A DNA stretch of 34,998 nt from Thermoleophilia bacterium (GCA_020438485.1 JAGQUM010000054.1:1-34998), one strand, 5' to 3'; positions 2,882 through 29,760 are shown, counted from the stretch's first letter. Notes: generated by a model not told the origin, from the letters alone. Numbers and translations: made by a program.

Positions 2882-2900
2882 TGATAGATAATAACTGTCA
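2882..2900. promoter_or_regulatory. operator-like palindrome 2 and -10 box over the Fic start codon
   Basis: TGATAGATAATAACTGTCA matches the upstream palindrome at 14 of 19 positions and has the same TGA-AGA/CTGTCA arms. Its last base is the A of the ATG at 2900. It also contains GATAAT (2887-2892), a good -10 sequence placed so that transcription would begin at or very near the start codon. A leaderless message under direct operator control is the simplest reading. No clear -35 is seen. Confidence 0.55.
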
Positions 2901-4090
2901 TGCCCCCCGTCGATCCGATCTACCCGCCCCCCCTGCTCGACGAACACGAGCGTGGCGTGGTCGCGGCCATCGAGGATCTACGCGAGCGGATGCATGGGTC
3001 GCTCGCCGTGCCCCGCCGCTGGGTCGGGGGGCTTCGGCGCGTCCAGTTCGCCCGCGGGGTCCGGGCCTCCAACAGCATCGAGGGCATCCACGCCTCGCTC
3101 GACGACGTGGTCGACGCGGTCGATGGGCGAGAACCCCTCGAGGCCGGCGAAGAGACCGCCGCCGCCCTGCTCGGCTACCGCCAGGCCATGACCTACGTGC
3201 TGCAGATGGCGGCCGACCCCGCGGCCAGGGTCGACGACGGCATCATTCGCTCGCTTCACTTCATGATGCTGGGACACGAACTGGACAAGAGCCCCGGCGC
3301 ATGGCGCAGGGGGCCGATCTGGGTGCGTGACGGCGCGTCGGGGGCGGAGGTCTACGAGGGGCCGCCCGCCACCGACGTCCCGCGTCTGGTCGACGCGCTT
3401 GTGCTCGCCTTGGCCGACGACGGATCACCACCGATGGTGGCGGGGGCGATGGCCCATCTCAACCTGGTGATGATCCATCCGTTTCGAGACGGGAACGGGC
3501 GGATGGCCCGCTGCCTGCAGACGCTGGTGCTGGCCCGGCGGTCGGTGGTCTCGCCCGTGTTCTCAAGCATCGAGGAGTACCTCGGCCGCAACACCCGCGC
3601 GTACTACGACGTCCTCTCCGAGGTCGGGCGGGGACGATGGAACCCGGGTGCCGACTCGCGCCCATGGGTGCGCTTCTGCCTGACCGCCCACTACCGCCAG
3701 GCGCACACGCACCTGCGCCGCATCCGCGCGACGGAGCAGCTATGGGTGCGCTGCGAGGAGCTCGCGCGCGAGCACCGGCTGCCCGAGCGTGCGGTGCCCG
3801 GGCTGATGGACGCGGCTCGTGGGATGCGGCTGCGAAACGCCGCGTACCGGGCGGCGGTCGCGACGGGAGACGGCGGGGAGATCAACGAGCTCATGGCCAG
3901 CCGCGATCTGAGGGCGATGGTGGGGAGTGGCCTGCTGGTCGCGCACGGCGAACGGCGCGGCCGCCGGTACTCGGCCTCGCCACGGCTGCGCGACGTGGCC
4001 GCCGAGGTGCACGCGGCCCGCCCTGTGCGCAGCGATGTCGACCCGTTCGCCGTGAGCCCCGATCAACTGGTGCGCGACGTCGGGCGCTGA
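2900..4090 (+). CDS. Fic-domain protein adenylyltransferase (class II, self-inhibited)
   Basis: Fic enzymes transfer AMP (or related groups) from a nucleotide to a hydroxyl side chain of a target protein. The core motif HPFRDGNGRMAR is intact at residues 193-204 (catalytic H193, anion-hole GNGR). An inhibitory motif SNSIEG lies at 57-62, N-terminal to the core, which makes it class II: the Glu blocks productive ATP binding until relieved. The C-terminal ~120 residues are basic and helical, ending in a winged-helix-like part (INELMASRDLRAMVGSGLL), as in many Fic-HTH proteins. At 396 residues it is typical of the Fic/HTH family. There is no antitoxin gene beside it, consistent with cis inhibition. 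The two palindromes upstream suggest tight, perhaps autogenous, control. The start is supported by the -10 box and the first residues; no ribosome-binding site is visible. The target is unknown. Confidence 0.9.
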   Translation: MPPVDPIYPPPLLDEHERGVVAAIEDLRERMHGSLAVPRRWVGGLRRVQFARGVRASNSIEGIHASLDDVVDAVDGREPLEAGEETAAALLGYRQAMTYVLQMAADPAARVDDGIIRSLHFMMLGHELDKSPGAWRRGPIWVRDGASGAEVYEGPPATDVPRLVDALVLALADDGSPPMVAGAMAHLNLVMIHPFRDGNGRMARCLQTLVLARRSVVSPVFSSIEEYLGRNTRAYYDVLSEVGRGRWNPGADSRPWVRFCLTAHYRQAHTHLRRIRATEQLWVRCEELAREHRLPERAVPGLMDAARGMRLRNAAYRAAVATGDGGEINELMASRDLRAMVGSGLLVAHGERRGRRYSASPRLRDVAAEVHAARPVRSDVDPFAVSPDQLVRDVGR

Positions 4091-4136
4091 CCGGCCGGCG
4101 GGCACGGATCACGCGGGCTGACCCCGGCGTCGCGCC

Positions 4137-5198
4137 TCACCACAGGCCCCGCGACACGAGTTCCTGCTCGAGGTCGGGGCCACCCGGGGTGAGCGAGAAG
4201 TGCGGCGCGACGGCACTGCCGTACTCGGGCCCCTCCCAGCCACACAGCTCCGCGTCGATGGCCCACGGCACGGCCGACGGCACGAGGTCCCGGGCGTCCT
4301 CGTCCCGGCCGGTGGGGGTCCACCTCACGCGGCGGCCGCCGTGCTCGCTGACGAGGACCACCCGGAACGCGGGCCCCTCCTTGTCGTGCACGTGCCGGTT
4401 CTTCACGCTGAGCGCCACGGGCAGCACGTAGAGGGTGTCACCCACCTTGACGATGCCCTCGTCGAGCAGCACCTTCAGGGCGCTGGGCCGCTTCTGGCGC
4501 GACCGGTTCTCGGCGCTCACACGCTCGGCCTGGATGCGCCGGGTGAGGTCGAACTCCTCCTGCGCGGGCAGCGGCAGCAGCCGGTTGACCGTGAGGTGCG
4601 TGTGGTGCTCCTCGTCGCGGTAAAGGCGGGCCTCGATGGCCTCAATGGGCATGCCGTAGACGTCGCCCAGGTATCGCACGTTGTGGAGCACGCGCCGCGG
4701 AAAGCCGGGGGCGATCAGCTTGATGCGCACCTTCTCGCTGGGCTCCCAATCGTCGAAGCCGTCGAGTCCGGCGAACTCGGTGATCTCCTCGCGCGCCGCC
4801 TCGTGGGCGCGCGTACCGTCCTCGTAGCCCTGGCGGCCGCGCCGCATCGACCACTGCGCCAGCGTGTCGGCTAGGTCGTCGGTGGGACGCTGCGAGTACG
4901 CACCCGCGTACGCGATGGCCTGGAGGTCGGTGGTGCGGAAGTCGTCGCTGACCTTCAACTCGATCAGCACCAGCTCGCCGTCGCGATCCACCGCGAGCAC
5001 GTCGAGCCGGTCGCGGTCCTCGTCGAACTCGGCCAGCTGATTGCCCAGAACCAGCAGATCCTCGCCGGCCAGCGCCGGGGTTTCGATGAGCAACCGCTCG
5101 AGCCGCGCTTCGGAGATGAGCCCGCCGAACGGCACCCGCGTGAGGCGCACCGACGCGTCGTCGGTAAGGGTGAGTACCACCGGGTCGAACGTGTTCAT
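4137..5198 (-). CDS. NucS-like (DUF91-type) PD-(D/E)XK nuclease
   Basis: 353 residues. The N-terminal half carries a PD-(D/E)XK nuclease core: Glu-rich helix with LIETPALAG, then D66 in RLDVLAVDRDG, E80-L-K82 in VLIELK, and Q93/Y97 in LQAIAY, the QxxxY element. This order is typical of the NucS/EndoMS and DUF91 families that cut DNA, in some actinobacteria at mismatches. The C-terminal half differs from NucS. It holds a segment (SALKVLLDEGIVKVGDTL, about 239-256) that resembles small domains attached to restriction or modification enzymes, so its DNA target may differ. The start ATG at 5196-5198 has GGAGGG 7 nt upstream, better than the longer frame to 5372. It is convergent with the Fic gene (46 nt apart). 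It is not confidently the housekeeping NucS; a restriction or defence role is possible. Confidence 0.75.
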   Translation of the reverse strand: MNTFDPVVLTLTDDASVRLTRVPFGGLISEARLERLLIETPALAGEDLLVLGNQLAEFDEDRDRLDVLAVDRDGELVLIELKVSDDFRTTDLQAIAYAGAYSQRPTDDLADTLAQWSMRRGRQGYEDGTRAHEAAREEITEFAGLDGFDDWEPSEKVRIKLIAPGFPRRVLHNVRYLGDVYGMPIEAIEARLYRDEEHHTHLTVNRLLPLPAQEEFDLTRRIQAERVSAENRSRQKRPSALKVLLDEGIVKVGDTLYVLPVALSVKNRHVHDKEGPAFRVVLVSEHGGRRVRWTPTGRDEDARDLVPSAVPWAIDAELCGWEGPEYGSAVAPHFSLTPGGPDLEQELVSRGLW

Positions 5199-5387: not shown

Positions 5388-5441
5388 GGACCCGACCTGA
5401 GCGCCGTAAGACCGCACAACGGGCGGGGTGATGTCCGGGTG

Positions 5442-6083
5442 ATGAACGACGACGTCGACACCACCGAGGCGCTCACCCGGATCGCCGAGCACGCCACCGC
5501 CGGCGTGAAGCACCACATGCGCTGCCGCGAGGAACTCATCGCCGCCGCCCTCCAGGGGTTCGCGGCCACGGCGTGGGGTGCGGCGCACGGCGACGTGGAC
5601 ACCGTCGAACTGGTGGCCGACGCCGAGCGCGCGCACGGGCTGCTGCTGCACGTGTCCGGCGCCGACACCCCGCGACGTTTCCTGCGGGACGCTGTCGCCC
5701 GCGTGCGTGCGCTCCACACGTCTCGTCACCCGCCCCCCTTCGGGTTCGTCACGCTGGACGAGCTCGACCACCTGGTGCGTGACCGCGGCATCCAGTCGGT
5801 GCGCGCAGGGGCCCTGCGCGACGCCGTCGGCGGCCGTCGCCTGGACGCGGCCACCCGCGCACTGCTGGAGGTCGAGCTCGACCGGCGCGACCTGGGAGTG
5901 CTGCCCGCGGGGATTCCCCCCGATGCCCGGCGCTGGGTGCGCGTCTACTCACACCACCACCCCGCGGGCCTGCTGGTGGCCGCCCTCGGCCTTCCCGGGC
6001 CCGACGGCGACCGCCTGGCGCGCGCCGCCCTGGCCGCCCACGCCCACCTCGAGGGGGATCCGGACCGACCGCGACGACCGTGA
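5442..6083 (+). CDS. unknown helical protein with a truncated paralogue at 410
   Basis: 213 residues; I do not recognise the family. There is no signal peptide or membrane segment. The N-terminal half is helical with many His/Arg (HATAGVKHHMRCREE, residues 17-31). The middle has a strand-helix pattern (FGFVTLDELDHLV) and a segment rich in His near 168-170 (YSHHH). The ATG at 5442 is preferred over the longer frame from 5199 because the truncated paralogue at 410 aligns from exactly this position; GGGG at 5425-5428 is a weak ribosome-binding site. After residue 205 the sequence becomes Arg/Pro-rich and stops at 6083. In the +1 frame a protein-like stretch continues to 6285 (DELVAFSLHTPPPGLRF...), so the 3' end may be frameshifted. 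Confidence 0.55.
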   Translation: MNDDVDTTEALTRIAEHATAGVKHHMRCREELIAAALQGFAATAWGAAHGDVDTVELVADAERAHGLLLHVSGADTPRRFLRDAVARVRALHTSRHPPPFGFVTLDELDHLVRDRGIQSVRAGALRDAVGGRRLDAATRALLEVELDRRDLGVLPAGIPPDARRWVRVYSHHHPAGLLVAALGLPGPDGDRLARAALAAHAHLEGDPDRPRRP

Positions 6084-6245: not shown

Positions 6246-6755
6246 TCAGCCCCGCGACGGTTCCGGACCCAAACCCAGGTTGTAGAGCCGCCAGGCCATC
6301 GCGACGCCGGACACGTCGTACGCCCGCGCCAGGTCGTCCGGCGTCGCCCCTTCGGCCACCGCGGCCGTCAAACCCGCGCGGGGCATCAGCAGCGTGGCCG
6401 CGAACACGTTCGCCTCGCGCTCGCGCGCGTCGGCGGCGCCCGTGGTCTCGTCGCTGCGGCACAGGATCCGCGGCGGCACCGAGGCCCCGGCGCAGTGCAC
6501 CACCCAGTGGCCCAGCTCGTGCGCCAGCGTGAACCGCCGCCGCGCGGGCGGCTCGTCGGCGTTCAGGTAGACGACCCGGCGGGAGGGCACCAGCATCCCC
6601 GATACGTCGAGGCCCGGGCGGACGTGCACCCGCAGGCCCAGCAGGTCCTCCGCGATGTCCAGCACCGGCACCGGCGCCGAGGCACCGGAGAAGGCGGCCA
6701 GGTGGTCGGCCAGCAGGCGTTCGGCCCGCTCGTCGCCGGGACGCGGCGGGCTCAC
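6246..6755 (-). CDS. ImmA/IrrE-family zinc metallopeptidase
   Basis: 169 residues. Zinc-protease motif HELGH at 79-83 (FTLAHELGHWVVH), with the expected downstream Glu in EREANVFAATLLMP (E114) as third metal ligand. The N-terminal region (LLADHLAAFSG..PVPVLDIAEDLLGLRV) is the usual ImmA/IrrE lead-in, and VVYLNADEPPARRRF is the strand-helix before the active site. Characterised relatives (ImmA of ICEBs1, IrrE of Deinococcus) cleave an XRE-type repressor after DNA damage. The GTG at 6753-6755 overlaps the TGA of the preceding gene (GTGA), so the two are translationally coupled. That neighbour carries an XRE-like domain and is the likely substrate. The longer frame extending upstream would read through the neighbour and is rejected. 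Confidence 0.87.
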   Translation of the reverse strand: MSPPRPGDERAERLLADHLAAFSGASAPVPVLDIAEDLLGLRVHVRPGLDVSGMLVPSRRVVYLNADEPPARRRFTLAHELGHWVVHCAGASVPPRILCRSDETTGAADAREREANVFAATLLMPRAGLTAAVAEGATPDDLARAYDVSGVAMAWRLYNLGLGPEPSRG

Positions 6756-7327
6756 GACAGCCCGAACAACCGGTCGAGCTCGGCGGCCTCGGGATCGGGG
6801 GGCGGGGAGTGGCCCGCCACGTCCGGCACGTCGAACCGCTCCACGGGCAGCGCCGACCGCGCCATGGCGTACTCGGCCTGCTCGCCGGCCGGGCCGAGCC
6901 GCCACGCGGGCAGGTCGGACGCCGCCATACCCAGGGCACCCGCGACGGCGTCGATCACGCGCCGGTCCACGGCGCGCACGTCCACGAGGCCCGCCTCCAG
7001 GTCGTGGTAGCGGTCGCGCAGCCGGTCCCGCAGCCGCTCCGGCGTGCCGAGGGCGCGCCGCAGCCGGTCCACCACGGCCTCGCGCCGCACGCCCTTCGCG
7101 GCGCGCAACGCCTGGATGGGAGGCTGGCCGGCCAGCAGCGCCCGCACGATCACGGCGTCCTCGGGCGCGGGTGCCGGCGTCGGCGCCGACATCAGCAGCC
7201 CCTCGATGAGGTCGGCCAGCTCCGCGGCCGCGTCGCCGGCCCGGTCGAGGTAGTCGTCGATGTCCGGACGCTCGCCGCGGGCGCGGCGGATCGCGAACTC
7301 GTCGAACAGGGCGTTGACGTCAGCCAT
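6752..7327 (-). CDS. XRE-like regulator, probable partner/substrate of the ImmA protease
   Basis: 191 residues. Residues about 70-140 (IQALRAAKGVRREAVVDRLRRALG, then YHDLEAGLVDVRAVDRRVIDAVAGALGM) have the spacing of an XRE/Cro-type helix-turn-helix as seen in actinobacterial ImmA-linked regulators; the match is by pattern, not a search. The N-terminal 45 residues (DEFAIRRARGERPDIDDYL, then AELADLIEGLL) form a separate small acidic helical module, resembling segments at the start of some kinase or sigma-associated regulators. A Pro/Ala linker (49-57) joins the two, and the tail is acidic and Pro-rich. It starts 8 nt inside the sigma-factor gene and ends in a GTGA overlap with the protease gene. 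It could also be the anti-sigma factor of the operon; both roles could be combined. Confidence 0.65.
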   Translation of the reverse strand: MADVNALFDEFAIRRARGERPDIDDYLDRAGDAAAELADLIEGLLMSAPTPAPAPEDAVIVRALLAGQPPIQALRAAKGVRREAVVDRLRRALGTPERLRDRLRDRYHDLEAGLVDVRAVDRRVIDAVAGALGMAASDLPAWRLGPAGEQAEYAMARSALPVERFDVPDVAGHSPPPDPEAAELDRLFGLS

Positions 7328-7841
7328 CCCAACTCGCCTTCAGTCGCGTGCGGGCGCGGAACAGTGCCTGGTCGACGGCGTTGCGGGTCATGCCCAGCCT
7401 CTCGGCCACCTGATCGTGCTCCAGGCCCGTGCCGTACAACAGGCAGGCGGCCCTGCGCTGCACGACGGGCAGCCCCGCCAGGCGGCGGCACAGGTCCCAC
7501 AGCTCCACGCCAGGGCGCCGGTCCCACACCGGCACGTCGAACCCGCGCTCGGGGTGCGTCTCGCGCTCGCCGCGGCGCGCGCTGTCGCCGAAGTAGTCCA
7601 GCGCTGCGTAGTGCACCAACTGGCGGGCCACCGCCTTCAGCGGTACGCCCGCGTAGTCCTTGCCGTCGCGGACCTCCTTGCAGTGGCGCACGAACGCGTC
7701 GTGGAGCACGTCGTCGCGGGCATCCCGCGACAGGCCCCGCTCGAGCTTCACGAACTCGGCCATGCGCGAGTACTGGAGCGTGAAGAGCTTCTCGAGGTCC
7801 TCCCGCATCATGCGGCGCTCGCGTGCGTCCTCGTCGTCCAT
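7320..7841 (-). CDS. ECF-type RNA polymerase sigma factor
   Basis: 173 residues. A sigma-2 domain covers about 15-90 (DLEKLFTLQYSRMAEFVKL, then DDVLHDAFVRHC and the basic helix around LVHYAALDYFGD). A sigma-4 domain covers about 113-170, with LAGLPVVQRRAACLLYGTGL and the recognition helix ERLGMTRNAVDQALFRARTRL. There is no sigma-3 domain, so it is ECF-like, directing polymerase to a small regulon. It is the first gene of a three-gene operon with an XRE-like protein and an ImmA/IrrE protease; no transmembrane anti-sigma factor is present, so control is probably through those two. ATG at 7839-7841 follows a weak Shine-Dalgarno. The upstream 106 nt hold the GTAAG repeats, a possible autoregulated promoter. 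Confidence 0.88.
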   Translation of the reverse strand: MDDEDARERRMMREDLEKLFTLQYSRMAEFVKLERGLSRDARDDVLHDAFVRHCKEVRDGKDYAGVPLKAVARQLVHYAALDYFGDSARRGERETHPERGFDVPVWDRRPGVELWDLCRRLAGLPVVQRRAACLLYGTGLEHDQVAERLGMTRNAVDQALFRARTRLKASWDG

Positions 7842-7873
7842 ATGCCTGTGGGTCTCGTCTCCGGCGCTGCCGT

Positions 7874-7891
7874 CTTACCCGTAAGCGTAAG
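7874..7891. promoter_or_regulatory. GTAAG repeat/inverted repeat between sigma operon and Cys-rich gene
   Basis: CTTAC-CC-GTAAG-C-GTAAG: an inverted repeat plus a direct repeat, AT-rich against the background, centred in the 106 nt between the divergent sigma-factor gene and the Cys-rich micro-gene. A further GTAAGAAT occurs at 8181-8188 upstream of recC. It could be a shared promoter element or regulator site; no promoter consensus could be fixed. Confidence 0.35.
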
Positions 7892-7947
7892 AAATCCCCG
7901 CCGGGACCGCGAGTGGTGGGCGTCGATCCCCTCCCCGACGAGGCCAC

Positions 7948-8080
7948 GTGACCCCCACCGCGGTCGAGAAGCGGCAGCCCGGCGGAGACCCCGTGCTCGT
8001 GCGGCGGGGCCTGCCCTCCTTGTGTCGCCGGCTACCAGCTGTGCTTCGACGAGGGCGGGCTGACCTCGAAGCACGCGTAA
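7948..8080 (+). pseudogene. putative small Cys-rich protein, frame broken near 7996-8000
   Basis: From GTG 7948 (GAGG at 7940-7943) the codons are almost all G/C-ending for about 17 residues (VTPTAVEKRQPGGDPVL). The signal then moves to the +1 frame, which reads CGGACPPCVAGYQLC and runs to a TAA-TGA double stop at 8078-8083. The join implies one surplus base near 7996-8000. The joined product would be about 43 residues with cysteines spaced C-x3-C-x2-C-x6-C, which suggests a small metal-binding or redox peptide. A perfect 11-bp hairpin begins 14 nt after the first stop, as expected for a real transcription unit. Alternatively the second frame is used alone with an unusual start. I do not recognise a family. 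It lies between the divergent sigma operon and recC. Confidence 0.4.
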
Positions 8081-8093
8081 TGACCAACGACCT

Positions 8094-8128
8094 CCGGCGG
8101 GGCGTTCACTCCCCTTGCGCCCCGCCGG
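8094..8128 (+). terminator. hairpin after the Cys-rich micro-gene
   Basis: CCGGCGGGGCG (8094-8104) and CGCCCCGCCGG (8118-8128) are perfectly complementary, with a 13-nt loop. No T-run follows, as is common for high-GC actinobacterial terminators. It separates the micro-gene from recC. Confidence 0.5.
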
Positions 8129-8240
8129 GCAGGCCCACCAAACCCCCCCGACCGACCGGCGAAAGACCGCGGCCCCGCGCGTAAGAATGCGGATACGTCC
8201 CGACGGCGCCTCCCCACATGACCCCTCCCCCTCCCCCGCC

Positions 8241-11200
8241 ATGCTGACCGTCCACCGGGCCACGCGGGCCGACACGCTGGCCGACGCGCTCGCCGAGCTT
8301 CTGGCGAGACCCCAGACCGACCCGTTCGCCCCCGAGGCGGTGAGCGTGCCCAGCCGCGGCGTCGAGCGCTGGCTGTCGCAGACGCTGGCCGCCCGCTTGG
8401 GCGCCGCCTCCGGCGACGGCGTGTGCGCCAACGTGACGTTCCCGTTCCCCGGCGGCATCGTGGGCACGGCGCTGGCCGCCGCCGGCGACGCGGATCCCGC
8501 CGGGGACCCGTGGGATCCCGACCGGCTCGCCTGGCCCCTCATCGAGGTCTCCGAGGGCCTCATGGGGGAGGCGTGGCTGTCGGCCCTGGCGCGCCACGTC
8601 GGCCACGGCCGCTCGGGTGAGCGCCACCCCGACCGCCGCGCCCGCCGGTTCGCCACGCTGCGCCACCTCGCCGACCTGTACGACCGGTACGCGGTCCACC
8701 GGCCCGACATGCTGTTGGCCTGGGCCGGTCGCGACGACACCGACGGCAACGGCGCGCCCCTGCACGAGGACCTGGCGTGGCAGGCCGAGTTGTGGCGCCA
8801 CGTGCGCGCCCACCTGGGGGTCCCCAGCCCCGCCGAGCGCCTTGAGCCGGCGTGCGCGCGCCTCGCCGCCGATCCCACCGTCGTGGACCTCCCGGAGCGC
8901 CTGGCGATGTTCGGCCTGACCCGTCTTCCCGCCGCGCACGTGCGGGTGTTGCACGCGCTCGCCCGGGCCCGCGACGTGCACCTGTTCCTGCTGCATCCCT
9001 CCCCCGGGCTGTGGACGCGGGTGGATGCCGCCCGCCTCCCGGCGCCCACGACCCGGCGCGACGACCCCACGCCCGCCATGGTCGCGGATCCGCTGCTTGC
9101 CTCGTGGGGCCGCGACGCCCGCGAGATGCAGCTCACGCTGGGCGCCGGGGCCGACGCCGACGTGCCGCACGCCGACCCCGAGCCCGCCGCGACGCTGCTG
9201 GGACGGTTGCAGACGGCCATCCGGCTCAACGCCGGACCGCCTTCGCCCGCCGAGCGCCCCTCTTCGACCGGGCAGACCGCTCTGTGCAGATCCACGCGTG
9301 CCACGGGCGCGCCCGTCAGGTGGAGGTGGCCCGGGACGCCGTGCTTCACCTCATGGCCGACGACCCGACGCTGGAACCCCGGGACGTGCTGGTGATGTGC
9401 CCCGACGTGGAGGAGTTCGCCCCCCTGGTGAACGCGGTGTTCTCCGCGGACGGCGATCGGGCGGAAGAGGGCGTTCCCGACATCCGGGTGCGCCTGGCCG
9501 ACCGCTCGCTGCGGCAGACCAACCCGGTGCTGGGCGTGGTCGCCGGCCTGCTGGAGCTGCCCGGCTCGCGCGTCACGGCGTCTCAGGTGCTGGACCTGGC
9601 GGCCCGCACACCGGTCGCCCGTCGCTTCCACATGGACGACGACGACCTGGAGCATGTCGACGCGTGGGTGCGCGAGGCGGGGATCCGGTGGGGCCTGGAC
9701 GCGGCCGGGCGCGAGCCGTTCGGGCTGGGCACGCTCGACGCCAACACGTGGCGCTTCGGCCTGGATCGCATCCTCACCGGCGTCGCCGTGGCCGACGATG
9801 GCGCGCTGGTGTCCGGGGTGCTGCCCCTGGACGACGTCGGAGCCCAGGGCATCGACCTCGCCGGCCGCCTCGCGGAGTTCGCCGACCGGCTGGGCCGCTG
9901 CGTCGACGCGCTCACGGGGCCGCAGCGCCTCGGGGAGTGGTGCGCGGCGCTCGGGCGCGCGGCCGACCTGCTGACCGACGTCCCGCCGTCGCAGGCGTGG
10001 CAACGGCGCGAGCTCGACGCCCTGCTTGACGAGCTGGCGGGGCAGGTGCCCGACGGGCGGGGCCCGGCGCTCGAACGCGCCGAGCTGGTCTCACTGATGG
10101 CCGACAGGCTGCGCGGGCGCCCCACGCGGGCCAGCTTCCGCACGGGCGGCCTCACCGTCTGCACGCTGGTGCCCATGCGCTCGGTGCCCCACCGCGTGGT
10201 GGTGGTGATGGGACTCGACGACGGCGCCTTCCCCCGCCGAGGCCACGTCGACGGTGACGACATCCTGGCCCGCGACCCGCGCGTGGGCGACCAGGACGTG
10301 CGCGGCGAGGACCGGCAGTTGCTGCTGGACGCCCTGATGGCCGCCGGCGATCACCTGGTGATCGTGTACACGGGCAGCGACGCCCGCACCAACGCCGCGC
10401 TGCCGCCCGCCGTGCCCGTGCTGGAGCTGTGCGACGCCGTGGACGCCGCGGTGGCGACGCCCGACGGCGGCCGCGCCAGCGGCGCGATCACCGTGCGGCA
10501 TCCCCTGCAGCCGTTCGACGCCCGCAACTTCATGGACGGCGGCCTCGGCGTACCCGGCCCGTGGGGGTTCGACCCCGTCTGCCTGGCGGGCGCCCAGGCC
10601 CTCCAGGCCGGCGCGGTTTCCGTGCCCCCGTTCCTCGACGGGCCGCTCGAGCCCGAACCCGCCGAGGTGATCGAGCTGGATGCGCTGGTGAGTTTTCTGG
10701 GCGCACCCATGAGGGCGTTCCTCGCCCGCCGGCTGGGCGTGTACGCCGAGTGGTCGGCCCAGGGCCCGGGCGACGCCCTGCCCATGCAGCTCAACGCTCT
10801 GGAGAAGTGGACGGTGCGCGACAGGATGCTGAGCGCGCGGCTGGGGGGGTCCAGCGCCGAGGACGCGGAATTGGCCGAGCGGCGGCGCGGTTTCCTGCCC
10901 CCGGGCGACCTGGCGGACGGCGTGATGGGCGACGTGCGCGGCGACGTCGAGGCGATCCTCGGCGCGTGCGGGACGGTGCGCGACGTTCCCCCCCGCACGG
11001 TCGAGGTGGACGTGACGCTGCCGGACGGCCGCCGGGTCGTGGGGGCCGTGGGTGGGGTGCGGGGGGATGTGTTGCTCGACGCCAGCGCGTCGAGCGTGAA
11101 GCCCAAGCGGCGCCTGGCCGCGTGGGCCCGCCTGGCGGCCCTGACCGCCCACGATCCGTCGCACCCGTGGCAGGCGCTGATCGTGGGCAAGGGCAGCCGG

Positions 11201-11584
11201 GCGGCGCTGGCGCCGCTGGACCCGGCCGACGGCGACCGACGGCGCGCGGCGACCGAGGCGCTGGGCACGCTGGTCGACCTGTACGACCGCGGTATGCGCG
11301 AACCGCTGCCGATGGCCGAGAGGACGTCGGAGGCGCTGGCCAGGGGCAAGAACGACGAGGCACGAGGCGCGTGGGAGGGCGACCGCTTCGCCGGCGAGAA
11401 CGCCGAGCCGGAGGCGACGACGGTGTTCGGCGGCCTCGCCGGCCTGGATGAGCTCCTGGACCCCGGCCCCGCCGCGTCCGAGTCCGGCCCCGGGTGGGAC
11501 GCGGCGGCCGGCTCGCGCGCCGAGCGACTCGCCCACCGCCTGTGGGACCCCCTGCTCGCCCACGAGGCGGGGGGCGACGCGTGA
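8241..11584 (+). pseudogene. recC: RecC subunit of exonuclease V, frameshifted by one missing base
   Basis: RecC holds the RecBCD complex together and scans for Chi. Codons from ATG 8241 give 340 residues of a typical start (MLTVHRATRADTLADALAELL, then VPSRGVERWLSQTLA). The frame then fails at the C4 run 9257-9260; one more C would read straight on (PSPAERPLFDRADRSVQ) into the second frame, which gives about 775 residues to TGA 11582-11584 (HACHGRARQVEVARDAVL, VLVMCPDVEEFAPLV, VVVMGLDDGAFPRR). Joined length is about 1115 residues, normal for RecC. All conserved blocks are intact on both sides, which favours a homopolymer sequencing error over a dead gene, but a real phase change is possible. 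The stop overlaps the recB GTG (GTGA). Start chosen by family N-terminus; no clear ribosome-binding site. Confidence 0.85.
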
Positions 11585-14500
11585 CCACTCCGCCGCCGTT
11601 CGACCTGGGCGGCCCGCTGCCCACCGGCATCACGCTGCTCGAGGCCAGCGCCGGCACCGGCAAGACCCACGCGATCGCGTCGCTGGTGGCCCGCTACGTG
11701 GCGGAGGGCACGCCCATCGACCGCATGCTCGTGGTGACATTCACCCGCCTGGCCACGGGTGAGCTGCGCGAGCGCGTGCGGGCGCGGCTGGTGGAGGCCC
11801 GCGACGTGCTCGAGGCCCACGCGGCCGGGGCGCCGGTCGACGCGACCGACCCCTGGACCGCGCGGCTGGTGGAGGGGGGCGACGCCGCGGTGCGTACCCG
11901 GCGCGCGCGCATCGGCGCGGCCCTGTCGGGGTTCGACGCGGCCGCCGTCGAGACCACGCACGGGTTCTGCCAGCGCGTGCTGGACGGCCTGGGCGTGGCG
12001 GGTGACGCGCCGCGCGGCGTCGAGGTCACCGACGACCTCGACGGCGTGGTGGCCGACGTCGTGGACGACATGTTCCTCCGCGGCCGCGGGTCCCCCGGCG
12101 GTCTCCCGTTCGGCGTGACGGCCGCGGCGACCATCGGGCGCCTCGCGGCGTACCACCCGGACGCACCGGTCGTCCCCCCCGACGACCCCGACCCGGGGGT
12201 GGCGGCGCGCGTGCGGTTCGCCCAGGCGTGCCGCGCCGAGTTCGATCGCCGCAAGCGCGCGATGGGCCTGATGGGGTTCGACGACCTGCAGGGACGGCTG
12301 GCCGACACGCTGGGCGACCCCGAGGCGGGCGACGCGTGCCGCCGCGCGCTGGAGTCGCGCTTCGACGTGGTGCTCATCGACGAGTTCCAGGACACCGACC
12401 CCGTGCAGTGGCGCATCATCAGCCAGGGCCTTTCCGGGGCGACGGTGGTGTTGATCGGCGACCCCAAGCAGGCGATCTACGCGTTTCGCGGCGCCGACGT
12501 GCACACGTACCTGCACGCCCGCGGCCACGCCCACACGCACTTCACGCTGCCGGTGAACTGGCGCAGCGACGGGCCGTTCCTGCGCGCGCTCGAGGCGCTG
12601 CTGGGCGGGGCCCGGCTGGGAGACGAGGGCATCGCGGTGGGGCCGGTGAAGCCCGCCCCGGGTCGCCACGGCACCGCGCTGGAGGGCGCGGGTCCCGCGC
12701 TGCGGGTGCGGGTGGTGCGCCGCGACCGCACCGGCGCCGGGCTCACCCTCCAGGGGCACGCGACGGCGGACTGGGCGCGCCGCGAGGTGTGCGACGACCT
12801 CGCCCGGCAGGTGGCCGCCCTGGTGTCCGGATCCGTGCGCATCGGCACGCGGAGCGTGCGCCCGAGCGACATCGGCGTGCTGACCCGCACCAACGGCCAG
12901 GCCGTCATGGTGCGCGATGCCCTGGCCGCCGCCGACGTGCCCGCGGTCATCGCGGGCACGGGCAGCGTGTTCGCCACGCCGGAGGCCGTCGACTGGGCCC
13001 GCCTGCTGGCGGCCCTGGAGCGCCCCGCCGACCACGCCGCGGCCGCCGCGGCCGCGCTCACGCCGTTCGTCGGGTGGGACGCCCGCCGCCTGGCCGAGTG
13101 CCCCGAGGACGACCGCGAGGAGCTGCACGAGCTGCTCCACGGCTGGCGGGACGTCATGACGGGGAACGGCGTCGCGGCCCTCCTTCGCACCATCACCCGC
13201 GACCGCGGCATGTACGCCCGCGTGCTGGCCCTGCCCGGCGGTGAACGGCGCCTCACCGACCTGCGCCATGTCGGCCAGCTGCTGCACCAGGCGGCCGTCG
13301 ACGAGGGGCTCGGCCCGGCCGCGCTTGCCGGGTGGCTCGCGGACATGCGGTCGGTCGCCGAGAACGATCAGAGCGAGGAACGCAGCCGGCTGCTGGAGTC
13401 CGACGGGGAGGCCGTGCGGGTGCTCACGGTGCACCGCAGCAAGGGCCTCGAGTTCCCCATCGTCTGCGCGCCGTTCCTGTGGGAGCAGGGCCTCACCCCC
13501 AAGAGGGAGTCGGTCTTCGTGGTGCACGACCCGGCCGACGGCCGCCGCGTGCTGGATGTTGGCGGGTCGGCCGGAGCGGGGGCGGCCGCCCGGCTCCGGG
13601 CCGCCGTCGCCGAAGCGCGTGGCGAGGAGTTGCGCCTGGCGTACGTCGCCCTCACCCGCGCCTGCCATCAGGCGATCGTGTGGTGGGCGGGCTACCGCGA
13701 CGCTCGCCGCGGACCGCTGACGCGGCTCGCCGCCGACCGCGGCGCGGACGGGGCGGTGCCCGACGACGCCGGCCCCGTTCCCCGCGACGACGACATGATG
13801 GCGCGCCTGCGCGCGATCGCCGAGGCCAGCCCCGGGTGCGTGAGCGTGGAGGCCGCCGAGGACGCGGCCCCGCCGGGCGAACCCCCGTCGGCGGGTACCG
13901 GCTCCGGCCCCCTGGACGCCGCGCGGTTCGGCCGCGACATCGACCGGGACTGGGGCCGCCACAGCTACAGCCGCATCACCGAGGGCGCATACGAGGCCCT
14001 GGTGGCGAGCGAGCCCGAGACGCCCCACACGGTGGACGAGCCGGACCCGGCCGCCGAGGATCCCGGCGAGCCGCTGCCCATGGACGACCTGCCCGCGGGC
14101 ACGGCGTTCGGCTCGCGCGTGCACGGCATCCTGGAGGTCACGGACTTCGCGGCAGGCGACCTCGCCGGCGAGCTCGACCGCGCCGCCCGGGCGCAGCCAG
14201 GCGACCAGGACGCCACCGAGCGCGCGGTGCTGACGGGCTGGCTGGCCCAGGCCATCCTCACCCCACTCGGCCCCGCCCTGGGGGAGGCCCGCCTGCGCGA
14301 CGTCACCCCCGCCGACCGCCTCAACGAGCTGGACTTCGAGATGCCGCTCACCGGCGGCGAGCGCCCCCGCGGCACGCTGCGCGCGTCCCACCTGGCCGAC
14401 CTGCTCGACGCGCACCTGCCGGCCGGGGACCCTCTCGCCACGTACCCCGACGCGCTGCGCGCCCTGGGCGCGGAGGGCCTCCTGAGGGGATTCATGGTGG

Positions 14501-14883
14501 GCTCGCTCGACCTGGTGGTGCGCCTGCCCGGCCCGCGGTTCGCCGTGATCGACCACAAGACCAACCTGCTGGGCACCGGGGGCCGCCCGCGCGTGGCCGA
14601 TTACCACCCCGACGCGCTGGCGGTGCAGATGCAGTCGCACCACTACGTGCTGCAGGCGCTGATCTACCAGGTGGTGCTACACCGCTACCTGCGCTGGCGC
14701 CTGCCGGGCTACGACCCGGGGCGCCACCTGGCCGGCGCGCACTACCTGTTCCTGCGTGGCCTGTCCGGCGCCGCCACGCGCGCCGCGGCCGATGGCCGCC
14801 GCCACGGCGTGTTCTCCTGGACCCCGGCGTCGGCCCTGGTGACGGCCGCGGACGCCCTGTTCCACCGGGGGGGCGCCACGTGA
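11581..14883 (+). CDS. recB: RecB subunit of exonuclease V (helicase-nuclease)
   Basis: 1100 residues; 3'-5' UvrD-type helicase and the single nuclease of RecBCD, used in double-strand-break repair. Walker A EASAGTGKTH at 21-30 (K28), motif Ia VVTFTRLATGELRER, Walker B LIDEFQDTD (from 265), GDPKQAIYAFRGAD, VLTVHRSKGLEFPIV and LAYVALTRA are all present. The C-terminal RecB nuclease domain has H848 (SRVHGIL), D977 (GSLDLVV), D991-H-K993 and the QALIYQ helix, so the nuclease looks active. GTG at 11581 overlaps the recC stop, and the gene's own TGA overlaps the recD GTG, so the three subunits are translationally coupled in equal amounts. The longer frame from 11494 lies inside recC and is rejected. 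Confidence 0.95.
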   Translation: MTTPPPFDLGGPLPTGITLLEASAGTGKTHAIASLVARYVAEGTPIDRMLVVTFTRLATGELRERVRARLVEARDVLEAHAAGAPVDATDPWTARLVEGGDAAVRTRRARIGAALSGFDAAAVETTHGFCQRVLDGLGVAGDAPRGVEVTDDLDGVVADVVDDMFLRGRGSPGGLPFGVTAAATIGRLAAYHPDAPVVPPDDPDPGVAARVRFAQACRAEFDRRKRAMGLMGFDDLQGRLADTLGDPEAGDACRRALESRFDVVLIDEFQDTDPVQWRIISQGLSGATVVLIGDPKQAIYAFRGADVHTYLHARGHAHTHFTLPVNWRSDGPFLRALEALLGGARLGDEGIAVGPVKPAPGRHGTALEGAGPALRVRVVRRDRTGAGLTLQGHATADWARREVCDDLARQVAALVSGSVRIGTRSVRPSDIGVLTRTNGQAVMVRDALAAADVPAVIAGTGSVFATPEAVDWARLLAALERPADHAAAAAAALTPFVGWDARRLAECPEDDREELHELLHGWRDVMTGNGVAALLRTITRDRGMYARVLALPGGERRLTDLRHVGQLLHQAAVDEGLGPAALAGWLADMRSVAENDQSEERSRLLESDGEAVRVLTVHRSKGLEFPIVCAPFLWEQGLTPKRESVFVVHDPADGRRVLDVGGSAGAGAAARLRAAVAEARGEELRLAYVALTRACHQAIVWWAGYRDARRGPLTRLAADRGADGAVPDDAGPVPRDDDMMARLRAIAEASPGCVSVEAAEDAAPPGEPPSAGTGSGPLDAARFGRDIDRDWGRHSYSRITEGAYEALVASEPETPHTVDEPDPAAEDPGEPLPMDDLPAGTAFGSRVHGILEVTDFAAGDLAGELDRAARAQPGDQDATERAVLTGWLAQAILTPLGPALGEARLRDVTPADRLNELDFEMPLTGGERPRGTLRASHLADLLDAHLPAGDPLATYPDALRALGAEGLLRGFMVGSLDLVVRLPGPRFAVIDHKTNLLGTGGRPRVADYHPDALAVQMQSHHYVLQALIYQVVLHRYLRWRLPGYDPGRHLAGAHYLFLRGLSGAATRAAADGRRHGVFSWTPASALVTAADALFHRGGAT

Positions 14884-16850
14884 CGACTGCCGCCGGGTGC
14901 GACGGGCGCGTGGCCGCCCATCCGCCTCCCGCCCTCGCCGCCCTCGCGAGTGCCGGGGTGCTGGCCGCCGGCGACGTCCAGATCGCGTCCCGCCTGTGCG
15001 CGCTGGCGGGCGAGGACCGCGACGACGTGCTGCGGGCAGCGGCCCTGGCGGCGAGGGCGCCACGGCTGGGTCACGTGTGCGTCGACCTCGCCGACGTGGG
15101 GGCGATGGTCGTGGCCGAGGCCGCGACGGCGGGGGCGGATGTACCCGCTCTCCCGCACCCCTCCGCGTGGCGCGACGCCCTGGCCGCCAGCCCGCTCGTG
15201 GCCGTGGGCAACGCCGACGACGGCCCGCGCCGGGCCCTGCGGCTGGACGGCAACCTGCTGTACCTCGACCGCTACTGGCGCGACGAACGCGAGCTGGCTG
15301 CCGCGCTGCGCGCGCGCTCCCATCCCGCGCCGGGCGTGGACTTCGATCTCCTCGGCCGCGGACTGACCGTTCTGTGGAGAGAGGATCTGGACGATCAGCG
15401 CGAGGCGGCCGCGCTGGGAGTGATGCGGCGGCTCACCGTGATCGGTGGAGGCCCCGGCACCGGCAAGACGACCACCATCGCCCGCATGCTGGCGCTGCTC
15501 GACGCCCAGCTGGGCGGCGTCTCGCCGCGGACGGTGGCGCTGGCGGCCCCCACGGGCAAGGCCGCCCAGCGCATGCAGGAGGCGGTGCACGACGCGGCCC
15601 GCGAGATGCCCGTGGCGCCTGCCGTCCGGGGCCGGCTGATGGCGCTCGAGGGCCGCACTGTGCATCGCCTGCTGCGCTCGCGGTGGGGGTCGCAGACCCG
15701 CTTTCGCCACGACGCCGGCAACCCGCTGCCGCACGACGTCGTGATCGTGGACGAGGCGTCGATGATGTCCCTGCCGCTGATGGCCCGCCTCGTGGATGCC
15801 CTGCGCGCCGATGCGCGCCTGGTGCTGGTGGGCGACCCCGACCAGCTCGCCTCGGTGGAGGCCGGCTCCGTCCTGGGCGACATCATGGGCCCCGCCCGGG
15901 AGCGCCCCGTGCGGAGCGCCGCCACGCTGCTGGCGCTGCGCGCGGCGGGGGCCGTCGACGCCGACCGTGGGGAGGCCGGGGAGCCGGCCGACGCCTCCAC
16001 CACGGCCGACGGCGTGGCCATCCTGCGTCGCGTGTACCGGTTCGGCGGCGGCATCGCCGGCCTGGCCGACGCGATCCGCCGGGGAGACGCCGACGCGGCC
16101 ATCGCCGTCCTTGCGGCCGGCCGCACCGACGTGTTGTGGATCGACGCGGACGCCGCGGACGTACCGGTGGGCGACCTGGGTGCGGTCCGCGACCCGGCGG
16201 TTGCCTGGGGCGCCGCACTCGCCGCCCACGGCCGTGCCGGCGAGGCCACGGCGGCGCTCGCCCGGCTCGACGGCTTCCGCCTGCTGTGCGCGCACCGCCG
16301 CGGTCCCTACGGGGCGCGCCACTGGGGAGAGCTCGTGGAGCGTTGGGCCTCACCCGCGGGCACCGCCCCCGGCATGTGGCTGCCCGGCACCCCGGTGATG
16401 ATCACGCGCAACGACCACGCGCTTCGCCTGTTCAACGGCGACACGGGCGTGACCGTGCGCCGCGGCGACGTCAGGGAGGTGGCGTTCCCCCGCGGCGACG
16501 GCCTCGTGGGCGTGCGGCCCGGCCGCCTGGCCGACGCGGAGCCCGTGTACGCCATGACAGCCCACAAGAGCCAGGGATCCCAGTTCGGGACCGTGGCGGT
16601 GATCGTGCCGCCCGTCGAGTCCCGCATCGCATCGCGGGAGTTGCTCTACACCGCGGTCACCCGGGCCCGCGAGCGGGTCATCGTGGTGGGCGCCGCCGAC
16701 CAGGTGCGGGCCGCCATCGCCCGTCCCATCGTGCGGGCGTCGGGCCTGCGGCGGAGGCTGTGGGGGGACGATGCCGGCGTTGACGAAGCGAGGGTGTGGC
16801 CGGGCGCGGACGACGGTCGTCCGCCGCGGTGGAACGACCGTCGCTGCTGA
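14880..16850 (+). CDS. recD: RecD subunit of exonuclease V (5'-3' helicase)
   Basis: 656 residues, the fast 5'-3' superfamily 1B motor of RecBCD. A helical N-terminal domain (1-110) contacts RecB in relatives. Walker A GGGPGTGKTTTIARM (K196), motif Ia APTGKAAQRMQEAV, Walker B DEASMMSLPLM (D291-E292), GDPDQLASVEAGSVL, and the C-terminal motifs AHKSQGSQFGTVAVIVP and LLYTAVTRARE are all intact. The segment between motifs III and IV carries an Ala/Asp-rich insertion as in actinobacterial RecD. The GTG at 14880 overlaps the recB TGA. The C-terminal 25 residues are variable. It is the last gene of the recCBD operon. Confidence 0.95.
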   Translation: MTTAAGCDGRVAAHPPPALAALASAGVLAAGDVQIASRLCALAGEDRDDVLRAAALAARAPRLGHVCVDLADVGAMVVAEAATAGADVPALPHPSAWRDALAASPLVAVGNADDGPRRALRLDGNLLYLDRYWRDERELAAALRARSHPAPGVDFDLLGRGLTVLWREDLDDQREAAALGVMRRLTVIGGGPGTGKTTTIARMLALLDAQLGGVSPRTVALAAPTGKAAQRMQEAVHDAAREMPVAPAVRGRLMALEGRTVHRLLRSRWGSQTRFRHDAGNPLPHDVVIVDEASMMSLPLMARLVDALRADARLVLVGDPDQLASVEAGSVLGDIMGPARERPVRSAATLLALRAAGAVDADRGEAGEPADASTTADGVAILRRVYRFGGGIAGLADAIRRGDADAAIAVLAAGRTDVLWIDADAADVPVGDLGAVRDPAVAWGAALAAHGRAGEATAALARLDGFRLLCAHRRGPYGARHWGELVERWASPAGTAPGMWLPGTPVMITRNDHALRLFNGDTGVTVRRGDVREVAFPRGDGLVGVRPGRLADAEPVYAMTAHKSQGSQFGTVAVIVPPVESRIASRELLYTAVTRARERVIVVGAADQVRAAIARPIVRASGLRRRLWGDDAGVDEARVWPGADDGRPPRWNDRRC

Positions 16851-27133: not shown

Positions 27134-28522
27134 ATGAGGACGCCACGGATCGCCGGCACCGCCCCCGCCACCCTCGCCCAGGGGTTCGACGCCATCCGGG
27201 CCGAGCTGGAGCTGCCCGGCGTGTTCCCCCCCGACGTCGAGGACGCTGCCGAGCGGGCCGCGGCGGTCCCCGTGCCGCCCGGCCGCGCCGACCGGCGCGA
27301 CCTGCCGTTCATCACCATCGACCCGCCCGGCAGCACGGACCTCGACCAGGCGCTCCACATCGCACCCGACGGTGACGGGTGGGTGTTGTCGTACGCCATC
27401 GCGGACATCGGCCTGTACGCGCCCGCGGGCGGCCCGGTGGACGCCGAGGCCCGCTCACGGGGCGAGACGATCTACCTACCCGACCGGCGCACGCTCCTGT
27501 ACCCGGCGGTGCTGACCGAGGGCGCCGCGAGCCTGCTGCCGGACGTCGACCGACCGTGCGTGCTGTTCACCATCCCGGTCGGCGCCGACGGCGAGATCGG
27601 CGAGGGCCGGGTGGAGCCCGCCCTGATGCGCTCCACCGACAAGCTCGCCTACCAGGACGTGGGACCGCGCACCGTGCCGCACCTGCGGGCGATGGGCGAG
27701 GCCCTCGCGGCCGCAGGCGAGCGGCGAGGTACGACGCGCATCGACCTGCCGGAGGCCACCGTCGCTCCGGACCCCGCCGCCCCGTCGGGGTACCGGCTGG
27801 ACGTACGCGAGCGGCTTCCCTCGGAGGAGTGGAACGAGCAGGTGTCGCTGGCCGCCAATATCGTCGCGGCGCGGAAGCTGGTGGCCGCCCGCACCGGGCT
27901 CTTCCGCGACATGGGCCCCGCCGATCCGGAGCGCATCGCGGGCCTGCGGGCGGCGGCGGTCGCGCTGGGGTTCACGGTGCCGGACGAGGAGGGGCCCGCC
28001 GCGCTGGCGCACGCCCACGCCCCGTCGCCGGAGGCCGCGGCCGAGCTACGCCGGGGTGCGCGGGCGGCGGCGGGCGCCGGCTACGCGCCGTTCGACCCCG
28101 AACGCCCGCCCTTCCACGCGGCGGTGGCGGCCGCGTACTCCCACGCCACGGCGCCGATGCGACGCATGGCCGACCGCCACGTCCTGGACGCGCTGGTCGC
28201 GCTGGACGCCGGGGCGCCGGCCCCCGTCACGGCGTGGGGCGAGCTGGCGAAGGCCATGAACGCTGCCGACTCGCGCGCCGCGCGGGCCGACGCCGCCGCC
28301 CTTGACCTGGTGGAGGCGTTCCTGCTGGCCCCGCGCGTGGGCGCGGAGTTCGACGCGGTGGTGACCGGCGCCACCGAGGACGGCGTGCGGATCCAGCTCC
28401 GCGACCCGCCGGCCCGGGCCGCGATGGGCATGCGGCCCCCCGCCGCCCCGGGCACGGCGCTGCGGGTGCGGCTGACCGCCGCCGACCTCGCGAAACGCCG
28501 CCTGACGTTCGCCCCGGTCTAG
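27134..28522 (+). CDS. short RNB-domain exoribonuclease (RNase II/R family)
   Basis: 462 residues, an RNB catalytic domain without clear cold-shock or S1 domains. The active-site segment is [14 protein letters not shown] (D63, D69, D71), and [15 protein letters not shown] is the later RNB motif with its paired Arg. E. coli RNase II has four Asp here; the last is Gln-72 in this protein. RNB enzymes degrade RNA from the 3' end. The short single-domain form is common in actinobacteria in my recollection. Stop overlaps the opposite-strand transducer gene by 4 nt. Confidence 0.85.
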
Positions 28523-29760
28523 GCGGAGGCCCGCAGCCGGTCGGCCAGCGACGCGAGCTCCTCGGCCAGCGACGCCACGACGTTGCTGGACGCGGCGCCC
28601 TCCTGCGACGCCGCGGCCATCTCCTGGCCGGCCCGTGCGATCTGTTCGATGCCGGTGGTGCTGGCCTGGACGGCGTCGCGGATGCTGGTGAAGCTCACGG
28701 CCACCGCCTCGGTGCTCTGGGCCAGGGCGCTCACGCGCTCACCGGTCTCGCCCGCCGCCACGCGCACGTCGTCCACGTGGCCCCGGCTGTCACGCACCTT
28801 CTGGTCGACGTCGCCCAGCGAGTGCTGCGTGTTCTCGGCGAGTCGGCGCACCTCGTCGGCGACGACCGCGAAGCCGCGGCCCGCCTCGCCGGCGCGCGCG
28901 GCCTCGATCGCCGCGTTCAGCGCGAGCAGGTTGGTCTGGTCGGAGATGCCGCGGATGAGGTCCACGATGCGCGCGATCTCCTCGGAACCGCGCTCCAGGC
29001 CCACGGTGGCGTCGCCGACGCGCACCACCCCGCCCCGGGTCTCCTCGGTCATCGCGACCGCCTGGCGCACCGTGTCGGCGCCGGAACCCGCGGCCTCGTC
29101 GGCGATGGACACCTGCTGGCCGACGGACTCGATCTCGGCGCTCAGGTCGATCGCGGCTCGCCCGATGCCTTCCGCCTGCGCCCGCGCGGCCTGCGCGGCC
29201 TCGGCCAGCTCACGCGACAGCCGCGCCGTCTCGGCCTGTACCTCGGCCTCCCGCTCGCGGATCTCGGCGAGTTCCTGCCGGATGCTGGACTCCTGCGCGT
29301 CGAACTGGGCGTTCAGGACCACGGTGCTGTCGAGCTGCACGGCCTTCTGAAACGCGACGAGCGCGGCGACGTCCGGGGTGCCGCGGACGATCAGCCGGTC
29401 GATGGCCGTCTCCAGGTACGACTGGTACGCCAGGAGGTGGTACTCCGGCGGGAAGCCCATCTTCACGTACGCCTTGCCCAGGCGCTCGCGGCGGTGCAGC
29501 ACCTTCTCGCCGAACTCGCCCGTCGCGAGGTCGGTGAAGTGCCGGCGTACGGCCTCGCCCCGCGCCGCGGCGTCCGTGGTGCGCTCGAGGGCGCTGCGCT
29601 GGGCGGGCGCACGCTCCAGGCGCGCCTCGAACTGCGCCACCAGGTCGTCGAGCCCCGCCAGCAGGCGCTCGCCGGCGGCGGCAAGGGCGGCGCGGTCCGC
29701 CGCCGTGAGGTCCAGGAACTGCGTGCGCTGCTCGATAGAGAGCCGGACGTCGTCAACCAT
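28519..29760 (-). CDS. soluble globin-coupled chemotaxis transducer (HemAT-like)
   Basis: 413 residues, no membrane helix. The N-terminal ~155 residues are a protoglobin-type sensor ([37 protein letters not shown], then [19 protein letters not shown]). A coiled linker (155-200) leads to a chemotaxis signalling domain with the conserved hairpin tip [18 protein letters not shown] and [15 protein letters not shown]. In HemAT-type sensors the segment after the E helix reads roughly I-G-x-x-H; here Tyr-98 takes the place of the proximal His. It may bind haem differently or not at all. Start ATG at 29758-29760 has a weak GGGGA; the longer frame to 29898 is basic and unlikely. It is divergent from the ETF-QO gene. 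No che genes are in the window. Confidence 0.87.

Follow-up and report, generated by a model that had tools for sequence, protein, structure and literature searches.

The locus examined here raises the question of what a sigma factor, an XRE-like protein and a zinc protease, encoded by three overlapping genes next to recCBD, might do together. M78 protease/XRE pairs are familiar as repressor-based switches, and most of what is known about ECF sigma factors concerns envelope signals relayed by membrane anti-sigma factors. The locus lies in a window of 34,998 nucleotides (i.e., the whole stretch of DNA that was analyzed) from the 2.58-Mb draft genome (91 contigs) of a Thermoleophilia bacterium. 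The initial annotation of this window had proposed a sigma switch for DNA repair that is relieved by proteolysis. We consider it probable that the three genes (hereafter, the triad) form a cytoplasmic, protease-gated ECF sigma switch that drives a regulon of repair and immunity genes. Each part of the triad has known relatives, and their combination appears to be new; we found no published description of it in the literature searched, and an ECF group number for it may exist.

The triad and its XRE-like protein

The triad genes are all on the minus strand and comprise an ECF-type sigma factor gene (7320-7841; 173 aa), a gene for an XRE-like protein of 191 aa that we call X (6752-7327; defined by the family alignments A1/A2 and an AlphaFold model), and a gene for an ImmA/IrrE (M78) zinc protease consisting of the peptidase domain only (6246-6755; 169 aa). 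The sigma and X genes overlap by 8 bp, and the stop codon of X overlaps the protease start by 4 bp, the likely start being the GTG at 6755 and not that of the 219-aa ORF. The sigma factor matched TIGR02937 (E=8.7e-12, residues 15-168) and Sigma70_r4_2 (E=1e-8, residues 119-167); it contains sigma-2 and sigma-4 regions without sigma-3, which places it among the ECF (group 4) factors. This layout agrees with the initial annotation, as do the orientation of the triad, which points away from the divergently transcribed recC, recB, and recD (8241-16850), and the operon's lack of a membrane anti-sigma gene, none of which was seen there.

The protease matched Peptidase_M78 (PF06114, E=1.9e-19). Its zinc-binding motif HELGH (6507-6521, minus strand) is intact, as had been annotated, and is followed by a glutamate region (EREANVFA), both features of M78 proteases being conserved across loci. 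The HExxH motif is intact in 73 of 76 homologous protease fragments, the remaining three being pieces of split genes. The best PADLOC match was capP (E=1.8e-27), and the nearest PDB structures were CapP (7t5t) and IrrE (3dte). At 169 aa, compared with 291-301 aa for the solved CapP/IrrE chains, the protease departs from the full-length CapP/PprI architecture: the match stops at the peptidase domain, and the C-terminal sensor (GAF-like) domain of CapP/PprI is absent. PprI and CapP are activated by ssDNA and cut the XRE-type repressors DdrO and CapH, respectively (PMC10904395, PMC13373217). Because the triad protease lacks the sensor domain, its activating signal may differ from theirs.

The AlphaFold model of X (mean pLDDT, 89.7; alignment of 68 sequences) starts with a helical module (residues 1-65; 7133-7327, minus strand) made of helices 4-16, 23-47, and 55-65. 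This module is followed by a five-helix XRE helix-turn-helix (HTH) domain (residues 66-147; 6887-7132), a low-confidence linker (about residues 141-170), and a C-terminal helix (residues 179-188; 6764-6793; pLDDT of about 97) with a D-x-L-F tail, in which D, L, and F are conserved in 94%, 97%, and 99% of the homologs, respectively. Structural matches to the HTH domain were 6jq1, 6rnz, 6rnx, 3f52, and 7t5u (VIA Z 6.4-7.2); model residues 63-149 aligned with DdrO (6jq1) at Z 7.2 with an rmsd of 2.4 over 67 residues. The likeness of the predicted structure to DdrO, ClgR, and CapH (7t5u) indicates nothing beyond a shared XRE fold. The XRE-like nature that the initial annotation had assigned to X is thus borne out by the model, whereas sequence profiles gave only subthreshold matches: HTH_31 matched X alone at E=0.59 and matched 10 of 18 family members with a best value of 4.9e-4, which is below the curated cut-off. 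A profile of X searched against the PDB retrieved mainly designed helical proteins plus one HTH protein. When the N-terminal module alone was searched with Foldseek, there was no match with an E value below 1, and no anti-sigma fold was matched.

Within the low-confidence linker, Arg157 (6857-6859, minus strand) is kept in 91% of the homologs and defines a candidate cleavage region. In DdrO, the cleavage-site region lies in a loop around Leu117-Arg118 (PMC10904395), and by analogy with this Leu-Arg pair, Arg157 may mark the site at which X is cut. The fold of X also bears on the way in which it might act. Its closest structural relatives are DdrO, ClgR, and CapH, the substrates known for such proteases are XRE repressors, and the promoter in the window contains an inverted repeat (CTTAC-CC-GTAAG). 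These features would suit a DNA-binding repressor of the CapH/DdrO type that sits on the promoter of the sigma operon and is stripped off by the protease, after which the sigma factor amplifies its own expression and never contacts X. We regard this reading as rather unlikely, since the YYHxLE sequence in the recognition-helix region of X is kept across families whose promoters differ, which is unusual for a helix that reads an operator. Moreover, apart from the promoter itself, we saw no conserved operator, and a repressor would have no need of the extra N-terminal module or the DxLF tail. Conservation of the recognition-helix region despite differing promoters, together with the presence of two further conserved parts in X, tilts us mildly toward an anti-sigma role over that of a pure repressor.

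Occurrence of the triad and of a shared promoter signature

Of 101 relatives, 23 were found to encode X; an 18-sequence profile detected it in 77 of the 299 class genomes and, outside the class, in two further genomes of the phylum sample, one of them marginal. In about 70 loci of this one Actinomycetota class, X is immediately preceded by a sigma gene and has a protease gene nearby, in the same or in convergent orientation; a sigma homolog holds its position before X in nearly all loci. The recurrence of this gene order at about 70 loci puts the layout far beyond chance. No relatives of X were found in viral contigs, phages, or plasmids, and the triad is a gene set common in the class and not a mobile cassette. 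Second, partial copies of X and sigma occur beside an intact triad at two loci (L037, G048, 7731-8236; L043, G005, 10599-11322), and in genus g9, seven genomes carry a DUF1996 gene downstream of the triad (L030, L031, L033, L035, L036, L040, and L041).

The recCBD neighborhood did not hold up in this survey. The gene recC is present in 43 of the 299 class genomes and adjoins the triad only in the window; no other triad locus has recBCD alongside. No recC was detected in a same-genus relative, which has genes for CtaG, histidinol dehydrogenase, and a DUF1326 protein at that place, and we therefore dropped the idea of a conserved recCBD neighborhood. An AddB-like gene adjoins the triad in two genomes.

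The regions upstream of the sigma genes share a bipartite ECF-type signature, GT[A/C]AG-N18/19-GAC. GTAAG was found 39 times there (2.65 expected), and GT[AC]AG-Nk-GAC was found 24 times for k=18 (1.41 expected) and 11 times for k=19 (0.82 expected). Across 998 kb of loci, selected independently of the motif, the signature with an ATG 6-12 nt downstream occurred 39 times at k=18 and 22 times at k=19, compared with 0-7 times (mean, 2.75) at other spacings. This sharp spacing preference before sigma genes accords with ECF promoters, which combine short -35 and -10 elements and are often autoregulated, and the short distance to the start codon is consistent with leaderless or near-leaderless transcripts. 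The signature varies by family: the sigma promoters are of the GTAAG-19 type in f1 and f3, GTAAG-18 in f8 and f11, and GTCAG-18 in f5, f7, and f9. Judged from these sequence patterns, the triad sigma factor probably reads GT[A/C]AG-N18/19-GAC. A housekeeping -10 element (TAAGAT read as TANNNT) was dropped as an explanation because a second element lies at a fixed distance and a GTCAG variant exists.

The signature also precedes genes for recombination and repair. It was found at k=18 or 19 in 9 of 32 recC upstream regions, mostly unlinked to the triad, and six of the nine sites are 38-43 nt before the gene. In a spacing control, these 9 sites compared with 5 at 16 other spacings together; this control superseded a first, gene-based version (p=0.046), which was weak because the flanking "other" genes are targets themselves and some starts were miscalled. 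AddB-like genes carry the signature in all three genomes with intact 5' ends, and RecB-like nuclease genes carry it in three occurrences. A motif search of nine genomes gave 77 matches versus 4 in a reversed control, which is unfair for codon bias. From these matches we picked by eye rmuC (Pfam RmuC, 1.4e-92), sbcD (SbcD), AddB (AddB_N), and cas3 (Cas3), each confirmed by Pfam and each in a single genome, as leads and not as counts. The sigma switch tied to DNA repair that the initial annotation had proposed gains strong, though indirect, support from the signatures before recC, AddB-like, and RecB-like nuclease genes and before the single rmuC, sbcD, and cas3 genes, and not from the recCBD adjacency. 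At the cas3 gene (L309, G129 C49:21200-23700), GTCAG-N18-GAC ends about nine nucleotides before the ATG. One contig (L305-L307, G122 C171) has at least six signature sites, around recC, and its sites also precede genes for a TPR-PP2C protein, small zinc-ribbon proteins, and uncharacterized proteins.

Genes for ARPP-1 (PF20208) frequently lie apart from the triad. In triad-bearing families, 22 of 24 of them are preceded by the signature, compared with 0 of 6 in the triad-less families f2 and f4 (Fisher p=4.7e-5, for sequences that are not independent). In all 22 positive cases, the variant is that of the sigma promoter of the same family. ARPP and TY-Chap3 proteins have been described in conflict systems centered on ADP-ribosylglycohydrolases (PMC9503650), and a TY-Chap3 protein is among the products of signature-bearing genes. 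A zinc-ribbon family (DUF2225-like, one member with TY-Chap3) carries the signature in three genomes (L207, L212, and L214).

Two further explanations can be weighed against these distributions. The signature may belong to another regulator or sigma factor (e.g., a PafBC-like activator) that controls both the triad and the repair genes. PafBC and the RecA-NDp element of mycobacteria likewise provide LexA-independent control of repair genes in Actinomycetota, with a GTC(A/G)G core, and GTCAG resembles part of the element tTGTCRgtg-N8-TannnT (PMC5656591). In addition, four of the nine signature-bearing recC genes are in genomes without a detected X (G243, G259, G055, and G247; L240, L242, L247, and L248). 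PafBC differs in being a WYL activator that acts with a TANNNT -10 element, and TANNNT at the RecA-NDp spacing was found in 0 of 61 signature sites, on which ground the element was rejected as a candidate. The sites are instead ECF-like in layout (a -35-like pentamer, a -10-like GAC, and a start codon 6-12 nt downstream), the motif is missing at ARPP-1 in triad-less families, and its variant tracks the family together with the sigma promoters; control by another regulator is accordingly improbable. The other explanation takes X and the protease as a toxin-antitoxin or defense pair of the RosmerTA/CBASS-control type, for which the sigma factor is merely a local driver. The protease does match PADLOC RmrA models (6.8e-16), and a Fic-domain gene (SoFic, 3.7e-45) and a PDC-S11 candidate defense gene (2.9e-30) adjoin the triad (window positions 2900-5198). 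We give this explanation very little credence, since the motif recurs at many unlinked genes and the triad is common in the class, with no match in phage or plasmid collections.

A proposed switch and its known relatives

In the switch that we favor, X, which shares an operon and is co-conserved with the sigma factor, would silence it at rest, most likely through direct contact in the manner of a soluble anti-sigma factor; the XRE domain of X may in addition occupy DNA. Upon stress, the signal most likely being ssDNA that arises from DNA damage or phage attack, the M78 protease would cut X in the disordered linker near Arg157. The cut would detach the C-terminal DxLF helix, which is docked in the model, from the HTH body, so that X fails. 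The freed or derepressed sigma factor would then direct RNA polymerase to GT[A/C]AG-N18/19-GAC promoters. Among these would be the promoter of its own operon, which would generate positive feedback, and those of targets that vary by lineage, i.e., genes for RecBCD or AddB-like proteins, RecB-like nucleases, and ARPP-1 and, in some genomes, rmuC, sbcD, and cas3. In this scheme, we infer that the triad sigma factor reads these promoters, that X inhibits it, that and where X is cleaved, which signal acts, and that repair is activated. More tentatively, the triad may underlie a class-wide, LexA-independent response to DNA damage and phages, in which a CapP-like protease destroys a soluble XRE-derived anti-sigma factor and the freed ECF sigma factor turns on helicase-nucleases, recombination genes, ARPP-1, and sometimes CRISPR.

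Several known systems share parts of this scheme. CapP-CapH, a module that controls CBASS and other immune operons, also pairs an M78 protease with an HTH protein of the XRE type and CapH-like fold and is likewise tied to DNA repair and immunity genes. The triad differs from it in that its output would be a dedicated ECF sigma factor with targets scattered over the genome, in the extra N-terminal module and DxLF tail of X, and in the missing C-terminal sensor domain of its protease. PprI (IrrE)-DdrO of Deinococcus resembles the triad in the M78 protease and XRE protein, in a hydrophobic/arginine site in the C-terminal linker as a possible cut point, and in the LexA-independent damage response proposed for the triad. 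DdrO represses each target directly, whereas the triad would control a positive sigma regulon and has a single-domain protease. Like ECF sigma factors with soluble or proteolyzed anti-sigma factors, the triad combines a sigma factor and a presumed inhibitor in an overlapping operon with positive autoregulation and a bipartite promoter, but it has no membrane anchor, and we recognized no known anti-sigma fold in it. Of the five modes of ECF control that have been reviewed, none consists of an XRE-like inhibitor and an M78 protease (PMC8103513). SigN of the Bacillus subtilis plasmid pBS32 also activates itself and has a link to DNA damage (PMC6751061); unlike the triad, this sigma factor is LexA repressed, leads to cell death, and lacks an XRE/M78 pair. 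If the proposed switch is real, a sigma factor under the control of an M78 protease in the cytoplasm would unite M78/XRE and ECF sigma control and would represent a further bacterial answer to DNA damage besides LexA and PafBC-like activators. The signature defines a testable regulon and offers a handle on uncharacterized genes, among them those for ARPP-1 and the small zinc-ribbon proteins, in an actinobacterial class that has received little study.

Signature sites and neighboring genes in the window

The window contains GTAAG-N19-GAC before the sigma gene (7852-7878, minus strand), which may serve autoregulation, and, back-to-back with it, a second GTAAG-N19-GAC that points toward recC (7881-7907, plus strand) and lies 360 nt before its ATG. 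A GTAAG-N16-GAC 60 nt before recC (8181-8204, plus strand) is doubtful in view of its noncanonical spacing. A further site, GTAAG-N19-GATGT (5406-5434, plus strand), has a weak -10 element and precedes an uncharacterized gene (5439-6083, plus strand), a homolog of which in G025 carries GTAAG-N19-GAC. Across the genome from which the window is derived, GTAAG-N18/19-GAC showed no excess (20 matches versus 20 in the reversed control), so the proposed regulon of this genome is small or degenerate. One match in this search was at a glgC-like gene and may be due to chance.

In this assembly, a frameshift at about 9.25 kb interrupts the recC gene (8241-11584, plus strand), with matches to Exonuc_V_gamma (7.4e-71) and RecC_C (1.8e-42) in different frames. 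The two frames are 8115-9395 and 8852-11584, and the break near 9250 reflects either a genuine mutation or misassembly; most other recC genes of the class consist of a single open frame. It is followed on the same strand by recB (11581-14883; UvrD-helicase, 2.6e-44) and recD (14880-16850; RecD_N, 5.3e-13, and AAA_19, 1.2e-33). Between the divergent promoter and recC, there is a short, stop-interrupted, cysteine-rich frame ending in LTSKHA (about 7900-8080, plus strand); at the corresponding place in the same-genus relative, a frame ends in LTSKNAC. Farther along the window, a minus-strand gene (28522-29760) encodes a protoglobin fused to a chemotaxis (MCP) signaling domain.
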